From assembly GCF_008709555.1 (NCBI RefSeq), contig NZ_VYIJ01000002.1, forward strand, positions 1 to 64,000: 64,000 bases of DNA, read 5' to 3'. Source of the stretch: Thermoplasma sp. (lineage in GTDB: Archaea; Thermoplasmatota; Thermoplasmata; Thermoplasmatales; Thermoplasmataceae). The notes beneath the pieces were generated by a model. The model worked only from the letters and a program-made list of their open reading frames with translations. It did no database searches and was not told the origin of the DNA. Of the stretch, positions 6,026 to 38,600 are shown in pieces (position 1 is the first letter of the stretch; every line of letters begins with the position of its first letter). Position numbers and translations under genes: made by a program.

Positions 6026-6941
6026 GGTTCGGAAACAGCTCGCTGAAAGAACAATCAGGGAATTAAAAAATGGCGGTCTGTATGACAGGGACTACGGTAT
6101 CATCAGAGATGGCGACTTTGTCTTCATACCAGTGGTGGAAAATTACATCGGAGATCACGTGGTCCTTGATGCTGAACCAAACAGGATCTCATCCGCGGCA
6201 TCCGGTTCATTTGATATCATAGGATCCATAGCGATCATGAAGAAACAAGATGAGACCCTCGCCAGAAACATATTGAATACGCACAGGAATATACGGAGTG
6301 TCTTCTATGATGAGGGTGTGGATGGGCCTGAAAGGATAAGAAAACTGAAACTCATAGCAGGAGATAACATCAGTGTGACGGAATACAGGGAAAATGGATG
6401 CACCTTCATCGTAGACGTGGCAAGGGCATACTTCTCCCCAAGGTTGGCAACAGAGAGGCGCAGATTGATCGAACAGGTATCTGACGGAGAATTCATCTTC
6501 GACATGTTCGCAGGCATCGGACCCATAAGCATCGAGATAGCCAGGTATCGGATGGTGAGGATAATCGCCGTGGACATGAACTGCGACGCAATAGACATGC
6601 TTCAGAGGAACATGGCGAGGAATCCTCTGCGTGGTACAATCGAACCGTTATGCGAGGATGCCAGGAACGCGGCTGTACGGGTATCAGATGCTGATCGTGT
6701 GATCATGAACCACCCCACAGCTTCATTCGAATTCATAGATTCTGCATTGAAGACCATCAGAGTTGGTGGCATAGTCAATTACTACGAGTTCCTGGATGAT
6801 TCCACGGTTGATCGCAGGATATCTGACCTCGAATCACGTTCGCTGCAACTTCTGGAGATGCATCGCGTTCATTCCTATTCCAAGACCATTTCGCTTTATT
6901 CCATGACGCTTAGAAAGGCTCGAGGCAATGCGGATCATTGA
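6003..6941 (+). CDS. trm5: tRNA (guanine-37-N1)-methyltransferase, Trm5 type
   Basis: A 312-residue class I SAM methyltransferase. Trm5 makes m1G37 next to the anticodon and prevents +1 frameshifting. The N-terminal domain precedes a Rossmann core with FDMFAGIGPISIEIA (SAM-binding glycine motif, about residues 163-177), an acidic strand end AVDMNCDAIDM, and a catalytic-type motif IMNHPTASFEF where Trm5 enzymes usually have NLP. The gene starts at TTG 6003 inside the end of hel308; a GGAGGG Shine-Dalgarno site (5988-5993) 9 nt upstream supports this start and translational coupling. The NHP in place of NLP is a small deviation. A wyosine-pathway homologue is the main alternative. Confidence 0.85.
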   Translation: MPPKKFVRVRKQLAERTIRELKNGGLYDRDYGIIRDGDFVFIPVVENYIGDHVVLDAEPNRISSAASGSFDIIGSIAIMKKQDETLARNILNTHRNIRSVFYDEGVDGPERIRKLKLIAGDNISVTEYRENGCTFIVDVARAYFSPRLATERRRLIEQVSDGEFIFDMFAGIGPISIEIARYRMVRIIAVDMNCDAIDMLQRNMARNPLRGTIEPLCEDARNAAVRVSDADRVIMNHPTASFEFIDSALKTIRVGGIVNYYEFLDDSTVDRRISDLESRSLQLLEMHRVHSYSKTISLYSMTLRKARGNADH

Positions 6942-6976
6942 TCCAGGCGTTTTATTTTTCCATTAGAATACAGAAA

Positions 6977-7015
6977 ACATATTTATAGGGGATATCACTG
7001 TCTTGACCGGAGGTG
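6977..7015 (+). promoter_or_regulatory. Promoter and strong Shine-Dalgarno site of the acidic micro-ORF
   Basis: A TATA box (atatttata, 6979-6987) is followed about 22-25 bp later by a perfect Shine-Dalgarno GGAGGTG (7009-7015), which ends 6 nt before TTG 7022. Together they indicate a dedicated short transcript with a leader. Confidence 0.6.
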
Positions 7016-7021
7016 GAAAGT

Positions 7022-7096
7022 TTGGTCTTCAAGAGGATGGATTACGACGATGACTTCGACGATGAAGACGAAGATGAAGACGACGATGATTTTTAA
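7022..7096 (+). CDS. Very acidic 24-residue microprotein
   Basis: Reading from TTG 7022 gives 24 residues: a short basic/hydrophobic start (MVFKR) followed by MDYDDDFDDEDEDEDDDDF, in which 15 of the last 18 residues are Asp or Glu. It is well placed for translation, with its own TATA box and a perfect GGAGGTG 6 nt upstream of TTG; ATG 7037 is a weaker alternative start. It lies alone between trm5 and the CoA-disulfide-reductase-like gene and is followed by a strongly structured stretch (7116-7179). I do not recognise a family. Acidic tails of this kind can bind basic proteins or metals, but no function can be assigned. A chance ORF inside an untranslated RNA remains possible. Confidence 0.5.
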   Translation: MVFKRMDYDDDFDDEDEDEDDDDF

Positions 7097-7115
7097 GGTC
7101 AAATTGATCATCGCT

Positions 7116-7179
7116 GGGGAGTAATAAAATTATGATCATCCAGAATTTTGAGGACTCCCCATGCATATCGAGATGCATG
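7116..7179 (+). ncRNA. Candidate structured RNA element (two consecutive hairpins)
   Basis: Hairpin 1 has an outer stem GGGGAGT (7116-7122) with ACTCCCC (7154-7160) and an inner stem AAAATT (7126-7131) with AATTTT (7144-7149) around a 12-nt loop. Hairpin 2 is CATGCAT (7160-7166) with ATGCATG (7173-7179) around a 6-nt loop. It lies between the acidic micro-ORF and the next promoter (TATA near 7272-7280). It could be the 3' end of the micro-ORF transcript, a stand-alone RNA, or a terminator. The pairings are visible; that it is an RNA is inference. The rest of the 6942-7303 gap holds only the micro-ORF and the downstream promoter. Confidence 0.4.
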
Positions 7180-7303
7180 AGGGATCGGAGTCAGCCTATG
7201 CGCGTTTTCATTACAGAGCTGTTTCGTCAGTGTTTCCTATTATTGAATGCATGAACCGTACCCGGAACGATGAACTATATATTTCATAGATCAATGTAGC
7301 GGT

Positions 7304-8611
7304 ATGGATATAGTCGTCATCGGAGGGGGCGCGGCGGGTATGGCAGCTGCGTCCAAGGCCAAGAGGATAAATAAGGACGCAAATGTAACGGTCATTGAGT
7401 CAGGTTCATTCGTTTCATACGCTGAATGCGGCATACCCTATTTCCTTCAGGGTATAGTGGGCAGGGCTGAAGACCTGCTTCATTATCCTCTAGAGGAATT
7501 CACTGAAAAGAGGGGGATAAGGGTCATCATCGGAAGGGTCGTCAAGAAGATTGATACCGCATCGCTTTCGCTGATCCTTGACAACGGATCTGCTATAAAA
7601 TTCGATCGCCTCATAATAGCCACGGGAGCTAGACCAAGGATACCAGATGGCATTGCATCTGGGGTGTTCGGCCTCAGAAGCCTGGAGAGCGCGATACGAC
7701 TCAGGGATGTTATCGATGGGTCCAGAACCGTGACGATAATAGGCGCCGGTGTTTTGGGCGTGGAACTGGCATCCACGCTTACCGAGGCCGGGAAGAAGGT
7801 GAAGGTCATATCAAAGTACGATCGGGTGATGCCTCAGCTTGATCCAGACATAGGAAAGATACTGAACGAATACTTCTCATCCAGGGTTGAAGTGGAATTC
7901 TCCTCCACTCCCGTGGAGATAAGGAAGGAGGATGATGCCTTTGCCGTCAAAACAACGGTGGATGACCATGTATCCGATGTGGTTATAGCTGCGGTCGGCA
8001 TAGTGCCAAACTCCAATATAGCCGTCGATGCTGGCATAAAGGTGGATCAGCGTGGAGCCATTCTGACTGATGATCATATGGAGACCTCCATTCCTGGCAT
8101 ATATGCTGCAGGAGATGTCGCCACCGTGAAGAACAGGATAACTGGAGAGGATGAGATGATGCCGCTTGCACAGATAGCGAACAAGGCAGGTAGAGTCGCA
8201 GGTTCCAACGCCGCAGGATCCGAGATGAAGTTTCCCGGTGCCCTTGGATCGACCCTTGTGAAGGTGTTCGATATGGAGGTCGGGTTCACTGGCCTCAACG
8301 AGAAGAGAGCATCTGCTCTTGGCATACCATATGGAAAGACCATGATAAGGGCAAAGAGCAGGGCAAACTACTATCCAGGAAAGGAGGACATATTCGTAAA
8401 AATACTGTACGACAGCAGGGACAGGAAGATCATTGGTGGTCAGGTCATGGGCAAGGACGGGGCAGCATGGAGGCTTAACACCCTGGCTACGGCAATATTC
8501 GCTGGTTTCACGGTCGAGGATCTATTTTACGACGATTTGGGTTACACACCACCATTCGGACCTGTATGGGATCCTCTGATAATTGCCGGAAGCGTGTCGA
8601 TGAGAGAATAG
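7304..8611 (+). CDS. CoA-disulfide reductase / NADH oxidase family flavoprotein
   Basis: A 435-residue FAD and NAD(P)H-dependent oxidoreductase. FAD binding is shown by VVIGGGAAGMAAA at the N-terminus, NAD(P) binding by TIIGAGVLGVELA (about residues 145-157), and a second FAD motif by IPGIYAAGDVATV. The single redox cysteine C42 in SYAECGIPY is the signature of the CoA-disulfide reductase / NADH oxidase group, as opposed to the CXXXXC disulfide reductases. It probably reduces CoA disulfide, polysulfide or oxygen. A TATA box (ctatatattt, about 7272-7280) 25 bp upstream of ATG 7304 suggests a leaderless start. The Lhr helicase gene follows after 1 bp. Confidence 0.85.
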   Translation: MDIVVIGGGAAGMAAASKAKRINKDANVTVIESGSFVSYAECGIPYFLQGIVGRAEDLLHYPLEEFTEKRGIRVIIGRVVKKIDTASLSLILDNGSAIKFDRLIIATGARPRIPDGIASGVFGLRSLESAIRLRDVIDGSRTVTIIGAGVLGVELASTLTEAGKKVKVISKYDRVMPQLDPDIGKILNEYFSSRVEVEFSSTPVEIRKEDDAFAVKTTVDDHVSDVVIAAVGIVPNSNIAVDAGIKVDQRGAILTDDHMETSIPGIYAAGDVATVKNRITGEDEMMPLAQIANKAGRVAGSNAAGSEMKFPGALGSTLVKVFDMEVGFTGLNEKRASALGIPYGKTMIRAKSRANYYPGKEDIFVKILYDSRDRKIIGGQVMGKDGAAWRLNTLATAIFAGFTVEDLFYDDLGYTPPFGPVWDPLIIAGSVSMRE

Positions 8612-11303: not shown

Positions 11304-13064
11304 TCACCTGTGCGGTGTGATGTTGGGATAGGTAAAATTCAGTGCAGCCAAGGCACCATTGTAGGACTGATTATATACCAGTACGTAGACGGTCTGCGGC
11401 ACCTGCGATGTGACGGATATGAGGAACGATGATCCGCCCATGAGCATGAACGGGAAGGGGCTGCCCTCAGACACCACCGCGTTCTCAACGATGACGCTGT
11501 AATTCCTTCCAAGCGTTCCGAATGCATAGACGTTGACCATCTCGGTCGATACCGTGTTGCTGTTCAGCTTTATGTTAACAGTATCATTAACGGTGGCATT
11601 GCCAGTGAATGGATTGCTGTTGCGCATTGCGAAATCCTTCGTGAGATCTATGAAGTAAATATGAACAGCTACTGATTCGGATGCCGTGGATGTGAACACG
11701 GATATCGTGTAAGTGTAGAATCCGGGGCTGGATCCCGTGAAATTCATGGTTATGTTGAACAGATCGGTGGTGGATGGCGGTACAGACCGGTGCACGGATC
11801 TGACATGCCAGGCTATGTAGGGTGAAACTGAAAATCCAGGCGTTATTGTGGACGTTCCATGGTTTGAAACGTAGATCGGATACGAAACGTTTGTGGACAC
11901 GTTTCCGCTGACGGAATACACAACGAACTGATTCTCTCCGTAGCTGATTGAAAACTGTGGTGGTAGAGTGTGAAACGGGATTGGAACGAGACCTATTAGA
12001 ACTATGATGACGGCTGAGAGGGCGATCGCCTTGACGTATGAAGATGATCTCCCGACATTGTTGAGGGGTTCAGGGCCCTTCACGCCCAGTATGAGAACGA
12101 ACACAAGCAGGATGAGCCACGATGGGTAGAGTATGGAGAGCCCGATGACAGCAACGACAGCTGTATATGACAGATACTGCGACCATCTGCCGAGCATGGC
12201 GGAGGATATGAGTCCACCGTCCAGAAAACCTATTGGCATGGCGTTGAAGGAAGATACGATGATACCCACCCATCCCGCATAGGCTGTGGGAAATAGAACG
12301 CCATCAGACGGAACGAAGCTTCTCATGGCTGCCTGGAATATGAGCGGGCTGCCTATCTGAAGTATGGGAGATTTCACCCCTGAAACCGGGACATGCTGCA
12401 TTAAAGACAGATAACCCCCGACTATGACGAAGACGAGGGAAACCAGAAAACCAAAGACGATTGAAAAAAGAGACGATTCGACCATGGCCCTCTTGCTTGG
12501 ATAAGCCACGTTTGGAGCATTTATGGATCCCATGGTACCCATGCCAATTGGGTCCGGCACGAAGATCGGGAATGAGTATTGCATGTTATTCCTCTTCATG
12601 CCGAGGTACCTGCCGGATTCTCTGGCCCCCAGGATTGCGAATACGGGTATGACGAAATACGCCATGGTTTCCAGCATTGCAACCATGGGTGGCGATGAAA
12701 AATAAGCTGAGACGTATGAGTATCCCACGTAGAAGAGCGTTATAACGGTTGCTATGGCCATGAGGATCTTAAGTATGGATCTCCTAGGTCTTTCTGGTTC
12801 ATGAATGATTATTATTTCGTTGCTGGCCCTGGTGAAAGCCACGTACCCGATCCTCCTCAGATCGGAGACAAGCATGGAGAAATAGTCCTCCGGATAATAA
12901 TCGATATCCTCAACCTCAACGACGAATTCTCCTTCGTCCTCCTTAACTCTTTTTACGCCATAGTATCGGCCGACTATCTGCTGTATCTGTTCGGGCTGCA
13001 TGGATGTATTTTTACTTAATCTGAATATTACATTATTAAGATTTGCTCCACAGCCATCCGTCAT
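11304..13064 (-). CDS. Site-2 protease (M50) homologue lacking the HExxH zinc motif
   Basis: A multi-pass membrane protein of about 586 residues. Residues 120-360 match M50 intramembrane metalloproteases of the EGY1-like group: the helix leading to the active site, the following PxPxFVPDPIGMGTMG segment, and the second motif FNAMPIGFLDGG with D282 intact. Where family members have HELGHY, this protein has RESGRY (residues 148-153), so both zinc-binding histidines are arginine; only the glutamate remains. A soluble N-terminal domain precedes the first helix near residue 97. The last ~220 residues are beta-rich with many N-glycosylation sequons and probably lie outside the cell. ATG 13001 (MQPEQIQQIVG) is a plausible shorter start. 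It is probably a pseudoprotease that binds but does not cut. Confidence 0.75.
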   Translation of the reverse strand: MTDGCGANLNNVIFRLSKNTSMQPEQIQQIVGRYYGVKRVKEDEGEFVVEVEDIDYYPEDYFSMLVSDLRRIGYVAFTRASNEIIIIHEPERPRRSILKILMAIATVITLFYVGYSYVSAYFSSPPMVAMLETMAYFVIPVFAILGARESGRYLGMKRNNMQYSFPIFVPDPIGMGTMGSINAPNVAYPSKRAMVESSLFSIVFGFLVSLVFVIVGGYLSLMQHVPVSGVKSPILQIGSPLIFQAAMRSFVPSDGVLFPTAYAGWVGIIVSSFNAMPIGFLDGGLISSAMLGRWSQYLSYTAVVAVIGLSILYPSWLILLVFVLILGVKGPEPLNNVGRSSSYVKAIALSAVIIVLIGLVPIPFHTLPPQFSISYGENQFVVYSVSGNVSTNVSYPIYVSNHGTSTITPGFSVSPYIAWHVRSVHRSVPPSTTDLFNITMNFTGSSPGFYTYTISVFTSTASESVAVHIYFIDLTKDFAMRNSNPFTGNATVNDTVNIKLNSNTVSTEMVNVYAFGTLGRNYSVIVENAVVSEGSPFPFMLMGGSSFLISVTSQVPQTVYVLVYNQSYNGALAALNFTYPNITPHR

Positions 13065-13318: not shown

Positions 13319-15934
13319 TCATTCGCTGTGTTCGTTGATGAATGAAGCGACTGATTCGTTTCCTTCTGGTTCAACGTTGAACAATCTTCTTATCATATCT
13401 TTTGCGTGCTTGCCTGGCGATATGGCTGTATACTTGAATTTCCCTGAGATGCGGGTCTCGACAACGAGATCGATCCTTCTGGAGTGGGCTATCCTGGATA
13501 TTTCCCCTATGTCGGCTTCATCGGCCTCTATTATTGGATATTCCACGCCGGATGATCCGATCTTCCGTGCGTTCTCTATCCTCGTCTCTATATCCCTGCG
13601 CTTCGCCTCCGCAAGACTCCGCTTGAGATCGGCGTATCCCTTTGAAATCTCTGAGACCGAATCGGCCAACTCGCCAATCGGTTTCTTTATCATCGTGGAT
13701 ATCCTGTATGCAGACTCGTAGGAATCCTGAAACAGATGGAGTGCGGGGACACCGGCGGAGAAGGTTATCCTGTATATGTTCTCCTGGATGGCCTCAACCT
13801 TCCTTATCTTCAGAACCCCTATGGATGATATATTCTTCAGATGCGTACCGCCGCAACCCTCCGCATCAACACCATGTATCTCGACAACCCTTATCTTGGG
13901 CGTGAGCGGTACGCCACCCTCGAACAGCCTGAAACCATACTTATCTATGGCACTGTACCAGTCGAGGTTTCTTACGCTGACCTCCCTGCCCTCCCTTATA
14001 AGCTCGAAGGCGCGTTCCTCAATCCTTCTTATGGTACCCTCGTCTATCCTTCTATAGTGCGTTATATCGAGTCTCGATTCCTCCACGTCCTTCTGAACGC
14101 CGTTCTGCCATACATGCTGGCCCAGAACCTCCCTCAGGACACCAAGCAGAAGGTGCGTCGACGTGTGGTGTATCATTAGTCTGGATCTCCTTTCCCAGTC
14201 AATGACTCCATGTACACGGACACCCTCAGGTATCTCGCCGTCAATGGTATGGACTATAGTTTTTCCATATTTGCGGACGGCCGTGACGTTTATCTTCTTT
14301 CCCTTGTATTCGAAGTAACCCAGATCCCACGGCTGGCCACCGCCCTCTGGATAGAATGCAGTCTTGTCCAGTATGATCTCATTTCCCTTGGAATAAACCA
14401 CGAGTCCTGTGAATTCCCTCATGAATGGATCGTCGTAGTAGAGCGTTCTCGTCTCTATATCCGGATAATCGCTGTATTTTTTCCTTTCAACGGCACCCTT
14501 CTCATGCCTCTGTATCACGAGCGCATGGAAGTTCTCCGGTACATCAATGGCCATTCCCTTAGTTTCAAGATAACCCTTCACGGTCTCCGGGCTTATTCCG
14601 TGAGAGTCGTAGAGCAGTATAAGATCTTCAAGATCGATCTTTCCCTTGCTTGCCAAGAGCTTTTCTATGATCTGGGTGCCATGCCTCTCAACATCCCTAT
14701 ATTTTTCCTCTTCAATGGAAAGGATATCTGATACGAACTGTTCCGGGAACTCCTGGACTATATCCCTGAGATCCCCATGGTTCATCTTTATGAGGTCCAT
14801 GAGGCTGCCAGTGTATCCCGTATTGTTTATGGCCCTGTAGGCCCTCCTTATCAACATTCTGGCCAGATAACCGACCTTAACGTTTGATGGTATGACATAA
14901 GCAGCAAACATGTGCATAAGCGATCTGGCATGGTCAATCATGAGGAATACATCCCTGACCTTCCTTACCCTCTCGAATCTCTCTCTGGCATCGGCATACT
15001 TCCTCTCCAGCTGGGATATGACGAAGGATTCCTCGTATGGTTCCTTCATCACCGAAATCTTGACAACATCCGTCAGAAATTCCTCGTCTATATCCGAAAC
15101 CGAGGAATTCTTCATGACGTGATCGATTATATCCGGATAGATGGCCTGATACACCGTGGGTGTACCCTGAGAGAGCCATGTCAGGCGTTCCAGCCCGTAG
15201 CCCGTATCAACTATTCGCATATCCATCTTCGAATAACGGATGCCGTCTATCTCGTATGGCCCGTTTGGATCCTCCTTCATGTCCATGAATACAAGCGTGG
15301 CAACCTCAAGTCCCCTCACAAATACTTCGAGTGCGTTTCCGGCATTGCCTCCGCCGGACCATGGCTTTTCCTTGAAACTTATCAGTTTTCCGTCTATGCC
15401 CAGGCCCTCAGTAATAAAATCGTAGCAGTAATGTACCGTTTCCTCCTTCCAGTACACAGTCTTATCCTTGGTGTTGAAGGAGTCATGGCACAGCATCTCG
15501 AAGCTTGTGAGATGACGTCCGGTTATGCCCACAAGATCGACATCGTTCATCCTTATACTGGGCTGGGACATGACGATTGGGTTGCCGGGCGGTTTCACGA
15601 TGCCCGAGGTAACATGGGGCTGAAAGTCATATATGGATGCGTTGACCAGAAGCACATCCTCCCTCCACCTCGGAACAACTGGATAAGGCTTCAGGACCTT
15701 GTGACCCCGCTTTTCGAAGAATTTGATGAAGGCATCCCTCATCTCATCCAGAGTATAGGATCTTGGTACAGGGCTGTTTCCTATGAACGTGTATTCATCG
15801 CATGGAGTGTCCCCGCAGGTGTTCCTCTGCCTGTCCTGCGTCCAAAAATAGGATCCACATTTGACGCACTGTTTCTTTTCAAAACCGCTGTTGAGAAAGA
15901 ATTCCAGATCAAGCTCCCCAGTCTGTTTTTCCAT
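13319..15934 (-). CDS. alaS: Alanyl-tRNA synthetase (archaeal type)
   Basis: An 871-residue class II synthetase that charges tRNA-Ala. It has the archaeal N-terminal extension with a cysteine cluster ([17 protein letters not shown]), the catalytic core with motifs around [17 protein letters not shown] and [11 protein letters not shown], an editing domain with the zinc-binding HHTSTH and CGGTH, and a shorter C-terminal domain with a coiled segment. The gene ends at 13319. ATG 15934 matches the family start ([12 protein letters not shown]). TTTTAAA- and AATTAAAA-type boxes lie 15-30 bp upstream. It is a single complete gene with no sign of damage. A 350-codon open frame on the opposite strand is a codon-bias shadow. 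Confidence 0.97.
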
Positions 15935-28458: not shown

Positions 28459-29278
28459 ATTTGCAGTTGCCTTCTCATACTATTTCAAAAACTACTACAG
28501 ATCAAGGAGCTTCTATCTGATGCTTGCACTAATAGTTCTCATAACTGCGATAATGTCTTATTTTTCCTTTAGGTATCAGGGTAAGATTGACAACTTTCTT
28601 TCAAGATTCGACAGCGCCGCGATAAATGCCAGCCTGAAGTCCAGGGCCCTAGACTACATATGGTCTTTCGTGCTCGTTGATATACCGGTTTACGCGGCAG
28701 TATTCTTCGGATCGCCATCCATATCAAGCGAGATAGAGGATAGGACGGCATTCCACATATTTTCCCTGCCAGTTGGAAGAGTAACGATACTCACCGCAAA
28801 ATATGCTGCAGCCTATGCCGTGACAGTACTGATTTCCATCATATACCTCATCATTGAGGCTGTAATAACAAGGACTATCTACGGAACACTGGATTTAAAG
28901 GCATTCCTCATATCTTTCCTGATAACACTTATATTCATAGCTTCAGTCCTTGCATTCACATTCTTCATAAGCAGCATATTCAACAGGAATATCTACGCGT
29001 ACATAACTGTGCTTATAATCTATTTCCTCGTGTTCAATGCGGTTGATGTCATAACCAGCCTTCTTTACAGCACAACCTCACCATTTCTCCTCAATAACGC
29101 TGCGAACATAATAATGGAGGTCTTCGTAAACATAAACCTCTTCACATTCTCGCCGACCATTTCGCTTTCGCCCGCCGGCACGTCTCAGATTCTGCTTGCA
29201 GTTGCAGTTATGATCGTATATCTTGCTGCTTCTCTCGCAGCAGCAGCCATCCTATTCGAGAACAAGGAGGCGAAATGA
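28448..29278 (+). CDS. ABC-2 type transporter permease
   Basis: A 276-residue membrane protein with six predicted helices. The architecture matches ABC-2 permeases: an N-terminal helix (FYLMLALIVLITAIMSYF), a loop, SEIEDRTAFHIFSLPVGRVTILTAKY (the coupling region typical of this family), then five helices. ATG 28448 is chosen because GGTG (28438-28441) lies 6 nt upstream; the frame also has GTG 28439. It overlaps the upstream gene by 11 bp and the ATPase gene by 4 bp. Transported substrate unknown. Confidence 0.85.
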   Translation: MTSKFAVAFSYYFKNYYRSRSFYLMLALIVLITAIMSYFSFRYQGKIDNFLSRFDSAAINASLKSRALDYIWSFVLVDIPVYAAVFFGSPSISSEIEDRTAFHIFSLPVGRVTILTAKYAAAYAVTVLISIIYLIIEAVITRTIYGTLDLKAFLISFLITLIFIASVLAFTFFISSIFNRNIYAYITVLIIYFLVFNAVDVITSLLYSTTSPFLLNNAANIIMEVFVNINLFTFSPTISLSPAGTSQILLAVAVMIVYLAASLAAAAILFENKEAK

Positions 29279-30168
29279 TGGAAATATCCATCAATGCCAT
29301 ATCAAAGAGGTACGGAGATCTGGTCGCCCTCGACCATGTATCATTCAACGTTAAAGGCAATGGGTGTATTGTTCTTCTGGGCCCAAACGGGGCTGGAAAG
29401 ACCACTCTCATGAAGATAATGACGAACATAATTAGACCCTCTGAAGGGAATGTCAGGATAAACGGTATAAACGTAAGAGAGAACCCAGGAAAAGCCCTTG
29501 AAGGTGTCGGATCCCTAATAGAGCAGCCTGAATTCTATCCCTATATCACCGGCTACGAGGCGCTCATGTTCACCTGCATGATCAGAGGAATATCCAGGGA
29601 GAAATGCGTCTCTGAGGTAGAACGCGTGTCCGCCATGACGCACTGCCGTGACTATCTCAGCAGGAGGACAAAGGAGTATTCGCGTGGGATGAAACAGAGG
29701 GTTGGACTCGCCGCTGCGCTCATCGGTGATCCAGAAATAATAATACTGGATGAGCCGACATTCGGCCTGGACCCGAACGGAATGATGGAGATCAGGGACA
29801 TAATAATGAAGCTGAAAAGGGAGAAGCTGATAGTGCTAAGCACTCATCTGATATATGAGGCAGAGATGCTGGCGGATCAGATAGGCATCATAGATCATGG
29901 TCATCTGATGCACTTTGGCCCAGTCGAGAAGCAGCGTTATCTTGAAGTCAGAGGCCGAATATCAGAATCACCGATACACATAGATGGTGTGGATATCGTA
30001 AGAAGGGATGACTCCAGATTAGTGATCAGGAAGGATGATGGAATCGAAAACTGGTCAATAATAAAGGCTCTGGAAGCTTCAGGATCTTCGATCGAGACCT
30101 TCGATTACTACAGCATAATTGAGGACCTATACAGGAACAACGTTTCGCAGAACGATGCAGAGATGTGA
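29275..30168 (+). CDS. ABC transporter ATP-binding protein
   Basis: A 297-residue ATPase. Walker A is GPNGAGKTT (about residues 38-46), the signature motif is EYSRGMKQR, Walker B is IIILDEPTFGLDPNG, and the H-loop is STHLIYEAE. The C-terminal ~80 residues form an accessory domain. A GGAGG Shine-Dalgarno site (29266-29270) precedes the paired ATGs at 29275 and 29278; the second has better spacing. It is the motor for the adjacent ABC-2 permease, with the sequon-rich protein as a likely partner or cargo-handling subunit. Confidence 0.92.
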   Translation: MMEISINAISKRYGDLVALDHVSFNVKGNGCIVLLGPNGAGKTTLMKIMTNIIRPSEGNVRINGINVRENPGKALEGVGSLIEQPEFYPYITGYEALMFTCMIRGISREKCVSEVERVSAMTHCRDYLSRRTKEYSRGMKQRVGLAAALIGDPEIIILDEPTFGLDPNGMMEIRDIIMKLKREKLIVLSTHLIYEAEMLADQIGIIDHGHLMHFGPVEKQRYLEVRGRISESPIHIDGVDIVRRDDSRLVIRKDDGIENWSIIKALEASGSSIETFDYYSIIEDLYRNNVSQNDAEM

Positions 30169-30219
30169 AGAATTCTCCATAACATACATAAACCTTATTT
30201 CCTGATTCTTGTTATTGTC

Positions 30220-31134
30220 ATGATGGATGTTTACTTCAACTTCTCCGCAGATGACCATGTCAGGGAAATAGCGAAAACCGTGCTTAACGGGTTCGACCTG
30301 TACTGGTATCCAGATTATCATGACGCGGAGGCTCAGGTCATAAAGGACAAATACGTCCTGGGCAAGAGAACTAGGATGATACAGACCATAAGCGCCGGTG
30401 TCGATCATATAGATATAACTGGCATTCCGGATGATGTGGTGATCTGCAGCAATGCCGGTGCATACTCCATATCCGTTGCGGAACATGCCTTTGCCCTACT
30501 TCTGGCCCACGCAAAGAATATCATAGAGAACAATGAACTCATGAAGGCAGGAATCTTCAGGCAATCTCCTACAACTCTCCTTTATGGAAAGTCATTTGGA
30601 ATCATTGGATATGGAGGTATTGGCAGAAGGGTAGCATATCTGGCCAAGGCATTCGGTATGAAGGTTCTAACATACACAAGATCAAAGGTGGATGAAAATG
30701 TGGACGAGACCATAGATACAATGGCAGACCTGTTCAGGAGATCCGACTTCATACTTATATCTGTGCCCTTGACCGATAAAACCAGAGGAATCATCAACCG
30801 CCAGCTTCTGCCAAACGCTAAAAGGAACGCAACCATCATCAATGTTGCACGCGCAGATGTGGTTTCAAAGCCAGACATGGTAGAATTCCTCAGGGAAAGG
30901 CCAGATGTATGGTATCTAACGGATGTGTGGTGGGATGAACCGCATATAACGGATACGGATCTGAAGAATCTCATACTATCGCCACACGTTGCAGGAGGAA
31001 TGTCCGGTGAGATAATGGACATTGCATTCCAGCTTGCATTTGAGAACGTCAGGAATTTCTTTGAAGGACATCCGAAAAATATCGTTAGAAAGGATGAATA
31101 CAGGATAAAAAGCGAGAGGTTCCTGGGGATATAG
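30220..31134 (+). CDS. D-isomer-specific 2-hydroxyacid dehydrogenase
   Basis: A 304-residue NAD(P)-dependent dehydrogenase. The nucleotide-binding motif is FGIIGYGGIGRRVAYLAKAFGM; the catalytic Arg is in NVARADVV (usually NVARG), the acidic residue in the DVWWDEP segment, and the His in LSPHVAGGMSGE. Family members interconvert 2-keto acids and D-2-hydroxy acids (D-lactate, glycerate, hydroxypyruvate). A TATA-like accttatttcc about 27 bp before ATG 30220 suggests a leaderless mRNA. The next gene starts directly after its stop codon. Substrate not determinable. Confidence 0.87.
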   Translation: MMDVYFNFSADDHVREIAKTVLNGFDLYWYPDYHDAEAQVIKDKYVLGKRTRMIQTISAGVDHIDITGIPDDVVICSNAGAYSISVAEHAFALLLAHAKNIIENNELMKAGIFRQSPTTLLYGKSFGIIGYGGIGRRVAYLAKAFGMKVLTYTRSKVDENVDETIDTMADLFRRSDFILISVPLTDKTRGIINRQLLPNAKRNATIINVARADVVSKPDMVEFLRERPDVWYLTDVWWDEPHITDTDLKNLILSPHVAGGMSGEIMDIAFQLAFENVRNFFEGHPKNIVRKDEYRIKSERFLGI

Positions 31135-32055
31135 ATGATGAGAAGATCGATTTATGCTGTCAGATTAGATACGGTGAGATATGAGAGAAAACTCAGCTTA
31201 ATAGCGGCCGTTGACAGCGTTGAATCTTCCCACTCCATAATAAATAGCATGATGGATATAGCCGAAGAAACTGGCTATCCATATGAGATTTTGATATCGA
31301 CTAGGTTGCCGGATGAAGAGAGATACTATTACGATGAGATAAGGGTAATCTCGAGGAACACAAAGAGAAGGAGCGATGGTCTGGCAAAAGCCATTAAATC
31401 TGCGACGGGAAATTACACCTTCATCTTCGATCCGTCGATAAACTATTCACTCTCCTACGCAGACCTCATATATGGATATATAAACATAGGAACCAGTGAG
31501 GTCCTTGTCTCTAACGTGATCGGTTTCCAGACAGATGTTGCGATAAACGTGGGAAACTGGAGACCTCTTGTCTGCGGTGAGGATATAGATCTGATGGCCA
31601 GGGCCTTGGACTCCTACGGGGTCATATCGTACCCATTGGGCAGTCTGACAGGTTTCGACATTGGAGAGCTCATTTACGGCAAAAAAAGAAGCAGGATAGA
31701 GAAAGCCATAGCCATGCGCGATCTCGTCATAGCTGCAAATCTGAAGCACAGCGATATAGCAGAGATGATGGAGGCCATGGATATGGATATTGCCACGTAT
31801 GAATGGATGATGTCAGGAAAAATACTCTCTTACCTTTCCAGGATAAGGCCATACGAAAAAAATGTAAACAATTACGTTTTCGTCATGGACAGGATAATAG
31901 AATCCTACATCTCACAGGATTACAGGAGGATAGATACCATCAGCGATACCCCGAAGATAACACTCTCCCCCAGGACAAGGAGGTATCTTTCAGCCGTCAG
32001 TGATCTCTGGACTGCACAGGATACGGATAACAAATATCCCAAAGAGAGTATTTAG
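31135..32055 (+). CDS. GT-A (family 2)-like glycosyltransferase homologue lacking the DxD motif
   Basis: A 306-residue protein with an outline like GT2 transferases: an early beta-alpha segment (LIAAVDSVESSHSIINSMMD), GLAKAIKSATGNYTFIFDPS where the usual acidic DxD is reduced to D99-P-S, and a later GEDIDLMARA (from G148) resembling the acceptor-side ED motif. Missing the second Asp of DxD suggests loss of metal/nucleotide-sugar binding or an unusual donor site. The C-terminal ~130 residues are helical and unassigned. It starts at the base after the dehydrogenase stop. The following gene also carries a degenerate GT-A-like domain. Assignment rests on motif pattern, so it is tentative. Confidence 0.55.
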   Translation: MMRRSIYAVRLDTVRYERKLSLIAAVDSVESSHSIINSMMDIAEETGYPYEILISTRLPDEERYYYDEIRVISRNTKRRSDGLAKAIKSATGNYTFIFDPSINYSLSYADLIYGYINIGTSEVLVSNVIGFQTDVAINVGNWRPLVCGEDIDLMARALDSYGVISYPLGSLTGFDIGELIYGKKRSRIEKAIAMRDLVIAANLKHSDIAEMMEAMDMDIATYEWMMSGKILSYLSRIRPYEKNVNNYVFVMDRIIESYISQDYRRIDTISDTPKITLSPRTRRYLSAVSDLWTAQDTDNKYPKESI

Positions 32056-32159
32056 ATTTTTTCGACATTTCACGTATATGGTGTCAGACTTAATATAGAT
32101 GAATTTTTACCACATACCAGAAAAGTTTAAAAGAGGAAATACCGATAACGCATATCACC

Positions 32160-33098
32160 ATGGAATATCAGCGAACCAGAAGTGTCATCGAGCAGCAGGT
32201 TTCACTGAGGGACGTTCTGTCAGACAAGACCCTCATAATCATAACTCATGACGAAGAGCTGCCAAAGAACCTCCCGCCGTTTGGCGAAGTAAAAATATAC
32301 ACCGTTGAGGCCATTGAGAGGGACAGAAAGAAGTTCGCACAGACCCTGAGCGATGATACGTTCTATATGATATGCGATGGTGGATACGCTTCAAAGGACA
32401 TAATATCAAGTCTTTACGATATAGACAGCTACGATATAATACTGGAAAAGAGGAGACTGGGTCTTCTACTGAAAATATTCAAGCATGTTCTCGCAGAGGA
32501 TGAGAGGGTTGCTGAGACCTCACTGGACGTTATATTCATGAATTCAGCCGTCATGGATTACATCCTCTCAAGGAATTACAGGATATCCAGAGAGGTTCTT
32601 CTCAGGATAATCTCAGGAAACAGGTTCCGCGTGAAGTACGTGGACACTAACATGTGGCAGAATCTGAAAAATTTCGTGTATATAGGCATATATGAGCTCA
32701 TCAGGAGTTCCCTGCCAAAATATCTGATCGTCGGAGTAACGGGTATCCTATTGAACGAATTTATGCTTAAGATGCTCTCCTATCATCTGCCTCTTACGTT
32801 TGCCGATGCCTTTGCCATCGAAACGAGCATAACCTCAAACTTCCTCATGAATGAGTACTGGACCTTCAATAACCGGGACGTTACCAGAGGCGTGAAGGGG
32901 TTCTTCCGTAGGATGGGGTTCCATAACCTGACGTCGCTGATAGGTCTCGGCATAAACCTGGGCATATTCACTGCTCTCGTCGATACAGGGATGGAGATGC
33001 TTGCAGCAAACCTGATTGGCATAGCAGTGGCATTTCTATCCAGATACTTGATGTCGTCCAGGATCGTCTGGCATGGGCCGACGAAGGTAAAAGAATGA
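32160..33098 (+). CDS. Degenerate DPM1-like glycosyltransferase domain fused to GtrA membrane domain
   Basis: A 312-residue protein. The C-terminal half (from about residue 183) is a four-helix GtrA domain with the signature FLMNEYWTFNNRD and an SRYLMSSRIVW end; GtrA proteins help move lipid-linked sugars across membranes. The N-terminal ~170 residues follow dolichyl-phosphate mannosyltransferases (FYMICDGGYASKDIISSLYD, then YDIILEKRR), but the catalytic DAD is replaced by D73-G-G. DPM1-GtrA fusions are known in archaea; here the enzyme half looks inactive. It could act with the neighbouring GT-like protein. A TATA-like aagtttaaaag precedes ATG 32160 by about 35 bp. Confidence 0.7.
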   Translation: MEYQRTRSVIEQQVSLRDVLSDKTLIIITHDEELPKNLPPFGEVKIYTVEAIERDRKKFAQTLSDDTFYMICDGGYASKDIISSLYDIDSYDIILEKRRLGLLLKIFKHVLAEDERVAETSLDVIFMNSAVMDYILSRNYRISREVLLRIISGNRFRVKYVDTNMWQNLKNFVYIGIYELIRSSLPKYLIVGVTGILLNEFMLKMLSYHLPLTFADAFAIETSITSNFLMNEYWTFNNRDVTRGVKGFFRRMGFHNLTSLIGLGINLGIFTALVDTGMEMLAANLIGIAVAFLSRYLMSSRIVWHGPTKVKE

Positions 33099-33182: not shown

Positions 33183-34157
33183 ATGTCCATGATGTCGATC
33201 TGGCTGAAGCTGAGCAGCCTTTTGATGGGCGTAGCTATCTTCGCCATTGGATTCGGCATAATTTACGGTATCCTGTACTATATTGGTATGGACGTGGGCG
33301 CGCTTGCCCTCCTGATAATTCTCCTTCCGATATTCATAATAATGGATGTATTACAATGGCTTTTTGGCCCTTACATAATAGGCACTGTTTACAAAACACA
33401 TAAACTGCAGCCTACAGATGCGGAATACACAATGCTATCCTCCATTGTTGCGGACGTGGCAAGGAACAACAATGTTAGAACTCCTGAGATATACATAGCG
33501 GAGGTCGATATTCCAAATGCATTCGCCTATGGATCGCCTCTAGCAGGAAGGCGAATCGCCGTAACAAGAGGATTGTTGAGGATACTTGATCCAGAGGAGA
33601 TAAAAGCAGTAATTGGTCATGAGATGGGACACCTCAGACACAAGGATGTGGAAATGCTCCTTGCTATCGGACTCATACCTACGATCATATTCTATTTTGG
33701 CTATACCCTGATCTTCTCTGGAGAGAGGAGCAGAAATGCGGGTGGAATACTGGTCCTTGCCCTAGTTGCAATGGCAGCGAGTTTTCTCTTCAGATTCCTC
33801 ATACTCGCCTTCAACAGGATGCGTGAAAGCTACGCCGATGTGAACTCTGCACTGACCGTGGATGGCGGTGCTGAGAAACTCCAAACCGCGCTCGCAAAGA
33901 TCGTGGCAGCCACCGGAAGAACAGGTCATTATTTCAGGCGGAGACGAAATAGCCCATCAAGCAGCATGACTGAGATGCTCTTCTTCAGCAATCCAAATGA
34001 GTCTGTTAATGAAGACTACAGGAAACTAATAGAGGAATGGAAAAATGCAAGGGTATCTGTCTTTGCTGACTTCTTCTCGGATCATCCGCACCCCGCCAAG
34101 AGGATACAGAGGCTTGAGAAGCTGAAGATGCAGGAAAGCGGGCTTAAGATCGAATGA
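33183..34157 (+). CDS. htpX: HtpX-like M48 membrane zinc metalloprotease
   Basis: A 324-residue integral membrane protease. Two N-terminal helices are followed by the zinc motif HEMGH (H146, E147, H150), with the third ligand probably E215 in MRESYADVNSA, and a second pair of helices between them (ALVAMAASFLFRFLILAF). HtpX degrades misfolded membrane proteins. A cttttaaatc TATA box centred near 33156 places the transcript start at ATG 33183. All catalytic residues are intact, unlike the M50-like protein at 11304-13064. Confidence 0.92.
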   Translation: MSMMSIWLKLSSLLMGVAIFAIGFGIIYGILYYIGMDVGALALLIILLPIFIIMDVLQWLFGPYIIGTVYKTHKLQPTDAEYTMLSSIVADVARNNNVRTPEIYIAEVDIPNAFAYGSPLAGRRIAVTRGLLRILDPEEIKAVIGHEMGHLRHKDVEMLLAIGLIPTIIFYFGYTLIFSGERSRNAGGILVLALVAMAASFLFRFLILAFNRMRESYADVNSALTVDGGAEKLQTALAKIVAATGRTGHYFRRRRNSPSSSMTEMLFFSNPNESVNEDYRKLIEEWKNARVSVFADFFSDHPHPAKRIQRLEKLKMQESGLKIE

Positions 34158-34594: not shown

Positions 34595-36685
34595 ATGATT
34601 TATTATCCCTACAATATGCTGCAAGAGAGGTCATGGAACCTTGCCCTTTCAGTGACGCTCATCGTCTATGCATACATGGCATGGCTATCCATAGGCTATT
34701 ACGAAATATCAGCCCTAGTACTGGTATGGATTCTCATAACTCTTGCTGGCCTCATCGCAATAAATGCAGCAACGCACTTCATCCCTGCAGTAAGATCCAC
34801 ACTCATATATTCAGCATTATTCGTCTCAATACTTCTCATGCTCACCATCTCCGTAAAATACGTTGCAAACTACTATCTAGAAGACGAGATACTCATACAG
34901 AACAACGCAGCGTATCTCTTCATCCATGGGCAGGACCCATACATAAGGTCAAACATGTTGAAGATGTTTTATTCTTCGCAGGTACCGCTGTTCAATACGC
35001 CTATGCTCCAGGGTGGCTATGTGTATTATCTGATCTACCCTGGTCTGTCCGTGCTACTCTTTGTCCCACCGATCGTTTTTCATTTCAATCCTGATTACGT
35101 TATAGCCGTTTTCAATTTTATCTCAATAGTTCTTCTGATATATTATTACAGAAAGAGAAAGCTAAAGTTGCAGACACCTCTAATAATAACCGCCATATTG
35201 GTTTCAGCATTCTATCTCGGCTTCACCGTTGCTGGTGTTTCCGCAATAATTTGGGTGACGCTGCTAGCCATGGCATACGTCTTCAGGGATCGTCCTTACG
35301 TATCTGGGATATTCCTCGGCCTGTCCGTTGCATACAAGCAGGATCCAGTTATCGTGATTCCATTCTTCCTGTATTTCATATACAAAGAGTACGGTGGCGT
35401 CCATGAGATCAAGTTCATAGCCGCAATGGTATCCTCCTTCATGATAGTCAACCTGCCCTTCATTCTAATGGGACCTCTGGCATGGATGTCCTCCATACTT
35501 GACGTGGCAAATCAGAGCATAATAGGCGTTGGTGTCGGGCCCTCCATAATCTCCTTTGCCGGTTTCTATCATGTGAGCCCGCTTTATTTCTCATTGTTAA
35601 TACTAATAATTGAACTGTTCCTGCTTTTCCTGTACGTTAGATATTACAATGCATTGAAGTATGCCTTTTTCGCCTTTCCTGTTCTTATAATGCTGTTCAA
35701 TTTCCGGGTTCTGATAAGCTATCTCATGTACTGGCCATTCCTTATAATGATCGTCCTCCCAGACATAAATATACAGGAGAACATGCTGAAGCCCCTTCGC
35801 ATCAGGAGATCTCATTTCATAGCGCTATCGCTTGTTCTGATAGTTGTGACCGGCGGCTTCGTGATACCCATGCACACAAGTTCCGCTTCGATAACGATAA
35901 ACTCCATAAATGGAGGCTCAGATGCCATATCCATACCAGGAGTGATAGACGGGATAAACATCACAATGTCCTATTACCCAGGCAATGGCTATCCGGCGTC
36001 CGTGCCCATCTATTTCAGGATACTGACCAATTCTCCAATGGAGAACTACAGTGTAAACGGTCTTTTATGGCATACGAACACTTATCTGCACCCCGGATCA
36101 AATAATATAAGCATATATCCGGACAACTCCTTCGATCTACTTCCAAGCAATACATCGTTTATACTGATAGCATATTACGGCCAGATGCAGGCCTCATACA
36201 GGAGCCATGGACTCTATGACAGGCCGAAATATCCTGTTCCGGATCCCATGTTCGCCTATCCTCAGTACTCAAGATCGGAACCATTCCCCAGGTGGTATCT
36301 CAGCGGAAATGGATCCAATCTCGTTTATATCGCTGATGGCTTCAACATTAGTTCCTCTGGATGGTCCAATATGACATCCAGCATACTTGTGGATTCATCG
36401 GCACTGCAGAACCTGACGATAGAATACAATATCAGTGGGAAAGGCATATACGGTTACACGATATCATTTTCCGAATTCAACTACACAGTCTCTTCGGAGC
36501 CATTCGCAGTGAACATGAATTACACGCACCTTGTGGTGAGCAGGAATCAAAATATGATCGAATTCGCAGCCGCATATCAATGGGCTTTGGCTAATCACTG
36601 GCCGACGACCGAAGTGGACATGGCCTTCTTCACCGGGCCCGGATCTGAGATGAGCGTTCAATATGTTGGTGCCTCGTATGATTAA
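34595..36685 (+). CDS. Polytopic membrane protein, GT-C glycosyltransferase-like (copy 1 of tandem pair)
   Basis: A 696-residue protein with roughly 10-12 hydrophobic helices in the first 420 residues and a beta-rich, sequon-rich C-terminal domain of about 270 residues. Segments such as EDEILIQNNAAYLFIHGQDPY and LSVAYKQDPVIVIPFFLYFIY resemble GT-C (PMT/DUF2029-like) transferases that use polyprenyl-phosphate sugars, where an early extracytoplasmic acidic pair is catalytic. The next gene is a paralogue. ATG 34595 follows an AT-rich stretch (attaatttgac). A role in S-layer or lipid glycosylation is inferred from fold and neighbours. Confidence 0.65.
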   Translation: MIYYPYNMLQERSWNLALSVTLIVYAYMAWLSIGYYEISALVLVWILITLAGLIAINAATHFIPAVRSTLIYSALFVSILLMLTISVKYVANYYLEDEILIQNNAAYLFIHGQDPYIRSNMLKMFYSSQVPLFNTPMLQGGYVYYLIYPGLSVLLFVPPIVFHFNPDYVIAVFNFISIVLLIYYYRKRKLKLQTPLIITAILVSAFYLGFTVAGVSAIIWVTLLAMAYVFRDRPYVSGIFLGLSVAYKQDPVIVIPFFLYFIYKEYGGVHEIKFIAAMVSSFMIVNLPFILMGPLAWMSSILDVANQSIIGVGVGPSIISFAGFYHVSPLYFSLLILIIELFLLFLYVRYYNALKYAFFAFPVLIMLFNFRVLISYLMYWPFLIMIVLPDINIQENMLKPLRIRRSHFIALSLVLIVVTGGFVIPMHTSSASITINSINGGSDAISIPGVIDGINITMSYYPGNGYPASVPIYFRILTNSPMENYSVNGLLWHTNTYLHPGSNNISIYPDNSFDLLPSNTSFILIAYYGQMQASYRSHGLYDRPKYPVPDPMFAYPQYSRSEPFPRWYLSGNGSNLVYIADGFNISSSGWSNMTSSILVDSSALQNLTIEYNISGKGIYGYTISFSEFNYTVSSEPFAVNMNYTHLVVSRNQNMIEFAAAYQWALANHWPTTEVDMAFFTGPGSEMSVQYVGASYD

Positions 36686-38600
36686 TGAGGATCTATGGTC
36701 GACAGTGAGGCGTTTCGAATACCTCGGGTTCACAGTTATAGCATATATGATAGCCTACTACCTCTGGACGTTTTACGGTTACCTGGATCTATTTGTGGAT
36801 CTGGTCCAGTGGACGATCTCAATTGTTGGTGCTTTTGTGGCAATATACGCCATGACCGGACATTCGATGAGGATACAGAGGAGGACGACCTATCTCTTGG
36901 CCGGCGGAAATACAGCTCTCATATTGACAATAATCATAAAATTCGGGCTTCTGAATACGGTGTTCGATCCAGTTATACTCTTTCTCGGCTTCGTCGACTA
37001 TTTTCTGCTGCGAGATGTGTTCAGTTCCGGCCTGGGCAATCCCATGCGTTTCGCCTATGTATTTGCGGCAGTGATGGTGTCCATGTTATCCATAATCTCT
37101 GTCGTCATGCGCCCCGGCCTTGTCACGATGGTGGTCGCAGTATTGCTTTTTTCCGCGGGGATACTCTCCTATTTCAGGTTCCATAACCTTATCCATCCTG
37201 CACTGATAGCGTCTGTAGTCCTCTTCGCATTATCCATACTTCCAATTTATCCAAAGTTGGGAACGGATGAGCTGGCTCTGGATTACTATGCCGCGATAGT
37301 GATACTCCATGGATCGAGTCCATACATGCCACAGGTAATGAAGAATGCGTTTTCCTTCCTCCATTTTCCGCTATCCATGACCACACCCCTATCTACCGGT
37401 GGATACGTTGAAAATTTCTCATATCCCGTGTTTGCAGCGCTGATGTTCATCCCATCAGCTATCATGCATTTTGATCCTAGCCTCACCATCCTTGCATTCA
37501 CCGTGGGCATATACATAATCACCGCCATCTACTTTCTCCGGAAGAGAATGATAGTATCATCGGTGCTTTCCATAGCCATACTTGCCGTGAACGTGAACAT
37601 GATCAGTTTTGCCGATGGGTCGGTTCCTGACGCTGCATGGGCCTTTTTCCTGCTGATATCAATGATGATCATCGACAGGCCTAGATCATCCGCTGTCATG
37701 TATGGAATCGCAATATCCTTAAAGCAGATACCATGGATAGTATTTCCTTTCCTGATATATTTCATATATCGCGAAAAGGGTACCAGAGCGGCGATCGAAT
37801 ACCTTGCAATTTCCATAGGTATCCTTGTTCTGACAAATGCCTATTTCCTGATAATGGAGCCACATCTATTCATATCCTCCATACTTTCCCCAGAGATATC
37901 ACACCTCATCGGGGTCGGGCAGGGCCTGAGCATAATAAGCATTGCTGGGTTCTATCAGCTTTCGCCAATCTACTTCACGATATTGTTCCTATTTTCCCTC
38001 ACCTTCATCTTCCTCCTTTATGTGAGACACTATCAGGATCTGAAGTACACCTTCCTGATATTCCCGCTCATCATATTCTTCTTTAATTACCGGGATCTCT
38101 ACAATTACCTGCTGTTCTGGCCATTCATCGCCTTCGCCTTTCTGCCGCATCTGAAGGCTGGTGAAATGACGAGGAGGATGAAGATAGGTATAAGGAAAAT
38201 TGCGGTATATTCCATCATATTCCTAGCTGTTGCCGGCATTCTATCAGTTCCGCTGCACAGCCAGAGCTCGTTTTCTATAACATCCGTATCGAACATTGAA
38301 CAACGGTCCTATTACGTAGTACAGATGAACGTCAACGTCTCCTATTCTGGTGATCAATTGCAACAGATCCAGTTCAGGTTTCTCCCCTATGGATATCTTG
38401 GAAACCTCAACGGACTCATGTGGAACGTGAAGTCATATGATTCTGGGCCGAACTGGATCAACTTCACAATAGAACCATCTTTCCAGCAGTCAATGCTCAA
38501 CGTCAATTATTCCTACAAGCTGGTTGCCTACTACGGAGATCAGCAAACATTCTATTTTCTAGATCTTCCCTCCATTCTATCCGGGTCTGTTCACCAATGA
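36678..38600 (+). CDS. Polytopic membrane protein, GT-C glycosyltransferase-like (copy 2 of tandem pair)
   Basis: About 640 residues, paralogous to the upstream gene. Shared blocks include DYYAAIVILHGSSPYM (against NNAAYLFIHGQDPY), SLKQIPWIVFPFLIYFIYRE, and IGVGQGLSIISIAGFYQLSP, followed by matching helices. It has a longer N-terminal helical part and a shorter exposed C-terminal domain (about 100 residues). ATG 36678, overlapping the upstream stop, is supported by GGTG (36668-36671) 6 nt before it; ATG 36663 is the longer option. The pair probably arose by tandem duplication and is co-translated. Confidence 0.65.
   Translation: MINEDLWSTVRRFEYLGFTVIAYMIAYYLWTFYGYLDLFVDLVQWTISIVGAFVAIYAMTGHSMRIQRRTTYLLAGGNTALILTIIIKFGLLNTVFDPVILFLGFVDYFLLRDVFSSGLGNPMRFAYVFAAVMVSMLSIISVVMRPGLVTMVVAVLLFSAGILSYFRFHNLIHPALIASVVLFALSILPIYPKLGTDELALDYYAAIVILHGSSPYMPQVMKNAFSFLHFPLSMTTPLSTGGYVENFSYPVFAALMFIPSAIMHFDPSLTILAFTVGIYIITAIYFLRKRMIVSSVLSIAILAVNVNMISFADGSVPDAAWAFFLLISMMIIDRPRSSAVMYGIAISLKQIPWIVFPFLIYFIYREKGTRAAIEYLAISIGILVLTNAYFLIMEPHLFISSILSPEISHLIGVGQGLSIISIAGFYQLSPIYFTILFLFSLTFIFLLYVRHYQDLKYTFLIFPLIIFFFNYRDLYNYLLFWPFIAFAFLPHLKAGEMTRRMKIGIRKIAVYSIIFLAVAGILSVPLHSQSSFSITSVSNIEQRSYYVVQMNVNVSYSGDQLQQIQFRFLPYGYLGNLNGLMWNVKSYDSGPNWINFTIEPSFQQSMLNVNYSYKLVAYYGDQQTFYFLDLPSILSGSVHQ

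Follow-up and report, generated by a model that had tools for sequence, protein, structure and literature searches.

A gene in the window analysed here, a 64,000-nucleotide stretch of Thermoplasma sp. DNA, encodes a site-2 protease (S2P) homologue in which both zinc-binding histidines have been replaced by arginine, a loss that is fixed, as Arg or Lys, throughout f1, the family to which Thermoplasma and Acidiplasma belong. With moderate confidence, we favour a reading of the long S2P of f1 as a catalytically dead protein that is fixed and kept by selection, and that would serve as a non-cleaving binder of membrane substrates, in the manner of a regulator or adaptor. Losing both metal-gripping histidines probably changed it from a protein that cuts others into one that binds them. 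The gene and its zinc-site residues are as follows:

11304..13064, minus strand: S2P-family pseudoprotease gene, 586 aa, ATG start
12621..12623, minus strand: R148, codon AGA, replacing the first zinc-ligand His (aligned to 3b4r)
12618..12620, minus strand: E149, codon GAA, the catalytic Glu, kept
12609..12611, minus strand: R152, codon AGG, replacing the second zinc-ligand His
12243..12245, minus strand: N274 of the NxxPxxxLDGG segment, Asn in 71/76 orthologues
12219..12221, minus strand: D282 of LDGG, the third zinc ligand, kept (Asp in 76/76 orthologues)

The HExxH zinc-binding motif of active M50/S2P proteases is absent from the Thermoplasma protein, and its position reads RESGR (AGA GAA TCC GGC AGG); the Asp ligand of the LDG motif, another trait of active members, is present as D282 within PIGFLDGG. 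In a profile alignment with MjS2P (PDB 3b4r), RESGR fell on LHELGH and FLDGG on PMDGG, matching R148, E149, R152 and D282 to the first His, the Glu, the second His and the Asp of the MjS2P metal site. The codons and this alignment bear out the first-pass annotation, which had read the site as RESGR with LDGG and held that an S2P homologue had lost both zinc histidines (H148 to R and H152 to R, with E149 and D282 remaining); it had not stressed that the catalytic E149 and the third zinc ligand Asp282 are both kept without exception. The protein thus resembles MjS2P and the M50/S2P family in fold, in its Glu and Asp positions and in the NxxPxxxxDGG segment, but differs in the replacement of both His ligands and in its extra N-terminal and outer domains. 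The predicted domains are:

12801..12995, minus strand: N-terminal alpha/beta domain, residues 24-88, from the AlphaFold model, aligned in active relatives
11988..12779, minus strand: transmembrane S2P core, residues 96-359, from the model, best PDB fold match MjS2P 3b4r
12519..12578, minus strand: re-entrant beta-hairpin region, residues 163-182, strands 167-171 and 176-181, holding the invariant Y163
11331..11954, minus strand: outer region, residues 371-578, two tandem Ig-like beta-sandwiches, sequon-rich

The mean pLDDT of the AlphaFold model was 87, for the full-length protein and the transmembrane part alike. Since PDB matches of the full-length model were mostly due to the Ig-like outer region, the transmembrane core was modelled on its own, and its best fold match was 3b4r (probability 1.00, E 4.9e-3, TM 0.49 on target); as modelled, the transmembrane core of the 586-aa protein is an M50/S2P fold. 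Pfam M50 scored the transmembrane part at 27.4 bits, barely above the cut-off of 27.2, and the full protein at 26.5, slightly below it, while a sequence-only PDB search with the full protein returned chance matches only. The outer region, which had been described as large and sequon-rich, contains 10 sequons where shuffles give 4.5 (P 0.006), and the outer regions of 75 orthologues carry a mean of 10.3 against 4.7, an approximately twofold enrichment.

Whether the loss is fixed, a question that the first-pass annotation had left to an alignment of orthologues, was answered by a survey of 77 genomes from 19 genera of f1, in which nearly every copy was read. Among the 76 pseudoprotease copies, 75 were readable at the zinc site, and all 75 lack both histidines and carry [RK]-E-x-x-[RK]: position 148 is R in 73 and K in 2, position 149 is E in every copy (codons GAA in 40, GAG in 35), and position 152 is K in 44 and R in 31. 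These copies have diverged to a median pairwise identity of 28% (minimum 20%), and across the family all six Arg codons are used for Arg148 and both Glu codons for Glu149, which indicates that the residues are held by selection rather than by youth. E149 and D282 are the sole invariant charged residues of the whole pseudoprotease in the f1 copies, and dN/dS in close f1 pairs is ~0.05-0.23, lower in the transmembrane part. The protein therefore combines an S2P fold with a zinc motif whose loss is fixed under purifying selection. A degenerate remnant, or an assembly or sequencing error, is of virtually negligible probability: the pseudoprotease does diverge faster than the short S2P copy of the same genomes described below, but a long open frame persists in nearly all genomes of the 19 genera, dN/dS is well below 1, the charged residues are invariant, and RExGR stands at the equivalent site in four further genomes of the genus. 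The f1 orthologues and these four genomes rule out sequencing error and recent decay.

A search of genome contigs with two peptide patterns only gave matches in Thermoplasmatales only, the named ones being Thermoplasma sp. and Acidiplasma aeolicum alongside Thermoplasmata MAGs. In genus g17, the pseudoprotease is present twice in each of two genomes (L100 and L010 in G105; L013 and L101 in G106), all four copies being RExxK, and the pseudoproteases L080, L083 and L084 of genus g4 have LDGA in place of LDGG.

In five sister families of the same order (f2-f6), the equivalent long gene encodes ~560 aa with an outer region and has HExxH in 22 of 22 copies sampled, as do 33 of 33 further copies from a wider class and phylum sample; HExxH is thus found in all 55 sampled relatives outside f1, as well as in all 14 short copies inside it. 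The f1 protein is like the long active S2Ps of these sister families in locus, architecture, length and outer region, with homology of the outer region between the pseudo copies and the active long copies of f5/f6 (E values as low as 2.5e-11 within a small set), whereas the active forms keep HExxH, QLDGGH and GxxGP. The locus is marked by one neighbouring gene:

13319..15934, minus strand: alaS, upstream of the S2P gene on the same strand

This gene lies directly upstream on the same strand at all 8 f1 pseudoprotease loci examined and at 6 active long loci of f2, f3 and f5, and adjoins none of the 5 short S2P copies examined. Because alaS adjacency is common to the pseudo and active long forms, the pseudoprotease sits at the ancestral locus, and its orthologue by position is the one long S2P that the sister families have next to alaS. 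In the tree, the pseudoproteases form a single clade (support 100/100) on a long stem of 1.57 changes per column, and the short copies form another single clade (100/100); an AU test of short and pseudo copies as sisters gave p 0.47. Both zinc histidines changed to Arg or Lys once, on the stem of f1. Orthologues with HExxH at this position, which the first-pass annotation had regarded as a sign of sequencing error or recent decay, occur only outside f1, in the sister families, on the other side of this one switch.

No neighbour other than alaS was consistently kept among the loci examined, so that gene order indicates no partner. NAD kinase and DUF2070 genes lie downstream of the pseudoprotease in several genera, though not in Thermoplasma, and DUF2070 is also close to active f3 copies; an operon partner was rejected on this patchy distribution. 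In G104, an IS605 OrfB/TnpB-like gene (L165:1646-2845, plus strand) lies upstream of alaS, between fibrillarin and methyltransferase genes.

The f1 genomes also carry a short S2P of ~365 aa with an intact HExxH and no outer region, at unrelated loci. It is present in 35 of 35 near-complete f1 genomes and in most incomplete ones, and HExxH and QLDG were found in 30 of 30 copies read. A search for intact M50 paralogues, as had been proposed, found three in the window's own genome: a short copy with HESAH...LDGSH on contig C43, and genes with HELMH on C41 and HELSH on C11. The outer region and the locus have stayed with the long copy and the chemistry with the short one, so that the two are partitioned. 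The lack of both histidines in every readable copy, together with these paralogues, supports the earlier proposal of an intramembrane pseudoprotease, the loss of activity being deduced, and a regulator or chaperone role, also proposed there, may fit such a protein. The Thermoplasma short copy (L182, G000:C43:54500-68500, ORF 6386-7462) has HESAH and LDGSH, where other genera have LDGGH. On contig C1 of the single-contig genome G060, the short S2P appears as two distant partial pieces (695441-696073 and 1934701-1935210), which could reflect disruption, rearrangement or a contig-end effect.

The coexistence of the short active copy throughout f1 would also suit a decoy or inhibitor, one that keeps substrates away from the short S2P or directly blocks it. 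We consider this improbable, as coexistence is also expected if both copies are simply needed, and the two share neither locus nor neighbour.

Comparison with 69 active relatives revealed positions that are invariant or nearly so in the active forms and changed in the pseudo form: N99, H148, H152, A180, P189, G201-P202, Q280, H285 and H330. The GxxGP segment of active S2Ps is accordingly missing (G201-P202 in 69/69 active, S/P followed by L/I/V in pseudo), and with it four conserved histidines. Other residues have become fixed: Y163 is found in 75/75 pseudo copies where active forms have Ala or Val, and position 99 is K/R in 72/74 pseudo copies versus Asn in 69/69 active ones. The newly fixed Y163 and K/R99 point to a new function rather than erosion, and the pseudo-specific residues look like gained constraint rather than drift. 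Given the loss of GxxGP and the four histidines, and the long stem, the ability to bind substrates may have gone as well, and the protein would then have a structural, signalling or transport-type role in the membrane, with no S2P-like substrate binding and with a charged quartet that does no more than stabilise the fold. Such a role, which the loss of GxxGP, Q280, H285 and H330 and the long stem would suit, seems somewhat unlikely to us, given that P166, P170, P172, G176 and G179 of the re-entrant loop are still conserved among the pseudoprotease orthologues, as is N274.

How the favoured non-cleaving binder might work can be outlined from the retained parts. The pseudoprotease has very probably lost both zinc binding at this site and peptide hydrolysis. 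It is likely that a pair of basic side chains substitutes for the metal, turning a site of E-, D- and Zn2+ into one of E-, D- and two R/K+; exchanging Zn2+ for two basic side chains with Glu and Asp kept would preserve net charge, leaving the buried site neutral and salt-bridged, with a geometry of R148 and R152 against E149 and D282 that homology suggests. E149 and D282, invariant in every readable copy, might instead carry out metal-free peptide hydrolysis aided by the basic residues. We give this a very slight probability: two of the three zinc ligands are gone, charge pairing also explains the retained D and E, zinc is needed in S2Ps to polarise the carbonyl, and a metal-independent M50 member is not known to us. 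There is likewise a slim chance that the charged quartet (R/K, E, R/K, D) is a metal-free functional site in the membrane, either as an acid-type peptidase or in proton or peptide sensing.

On the non-cleaving reading, there is about an even chance that membrane-spanning substrates still join the hairpin and the NxxPxxxLDGG segment as an added strand and that their extracellular parts are recognised by the Ig-like domains, so that membrane proteins would be held or presented uncut. The receiver might, tentatively, be a membrane protease, either the short S2P with its active site or a different one. SpoIVFB retains its grip on the substrate even when zinc-free, through beta-augmentation at the re-entrant loop (PMC11486902), and the rhomboid YqgP illustrates catalysis-independent adaptor use of a bacterial intramembrane protease (PMC7231995). 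This zinc-free hold, the kept re-entrant loop and the YqgP precedent together favour a non-cleaving binder.

The window also holds the intact HtpX noted earlier, an M48 peptidase with HEMGH (33183-34157, plus strand), 20 kb away, and no link between it and the pseudoprotease was found. Two GT87-type glycosyltransferase-like membrane proteins (34595-38600) follow htpX, and upstream lies a 306-aa ORF (31135-32055, plus strand) within a run of ~300-aa ORFs (29275-33098), one of which was searched and had no Pfam match.

The nearest described counterpart is EGY3, a plant chloroplast S2P-like pseudoprotease that lacks HExxH, is conserved in its lineage and exists alongside active EGY proteases (PMC9355673, PMC10978774), and that is said to be plant-only and the sole pseudoenzyme of its protease family (PMC9355673). 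A literature search of partial coverage turned up no description of an S2P pseudoprotease from archaea or bacteria. Like EGY3, the f1 protein is an S2P homologue with a lost zinc motif, fixed beside active relatives; unlike EGY3, as compared by description, it is archaeal and has an extracellular Ig-like region and [RK]Exx[RK]. The single switch inside Thermoplasmatales suggests that the two arose separately. iRhoms, Derlins and YqgP offer a functional comparison, using an intramembrane-protease fold in non-catalytic handling of membrane proteins (PMC3149277, PMC7231995), but theirs is the serine-protease (rhomboid) fold, unrelated to S2P.

The f1 protein would thus be a prokaryotic S2P pseudoprotease fixed across a family that has cultured organisms, where EGY3 has been described as plant-only. 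The sister families carry active orthologues at this locus, and the cell itself has an active paralogue, which together make a clean natural experiment. If the charged quartet were itself functional, it would represent a metal-free branch of a metalloprotease family. The passage from metalloprotease to non-enzyme would show which residues have to change, here through a replacement of the metal that conserves charge, and which of the parts used in binding remain.
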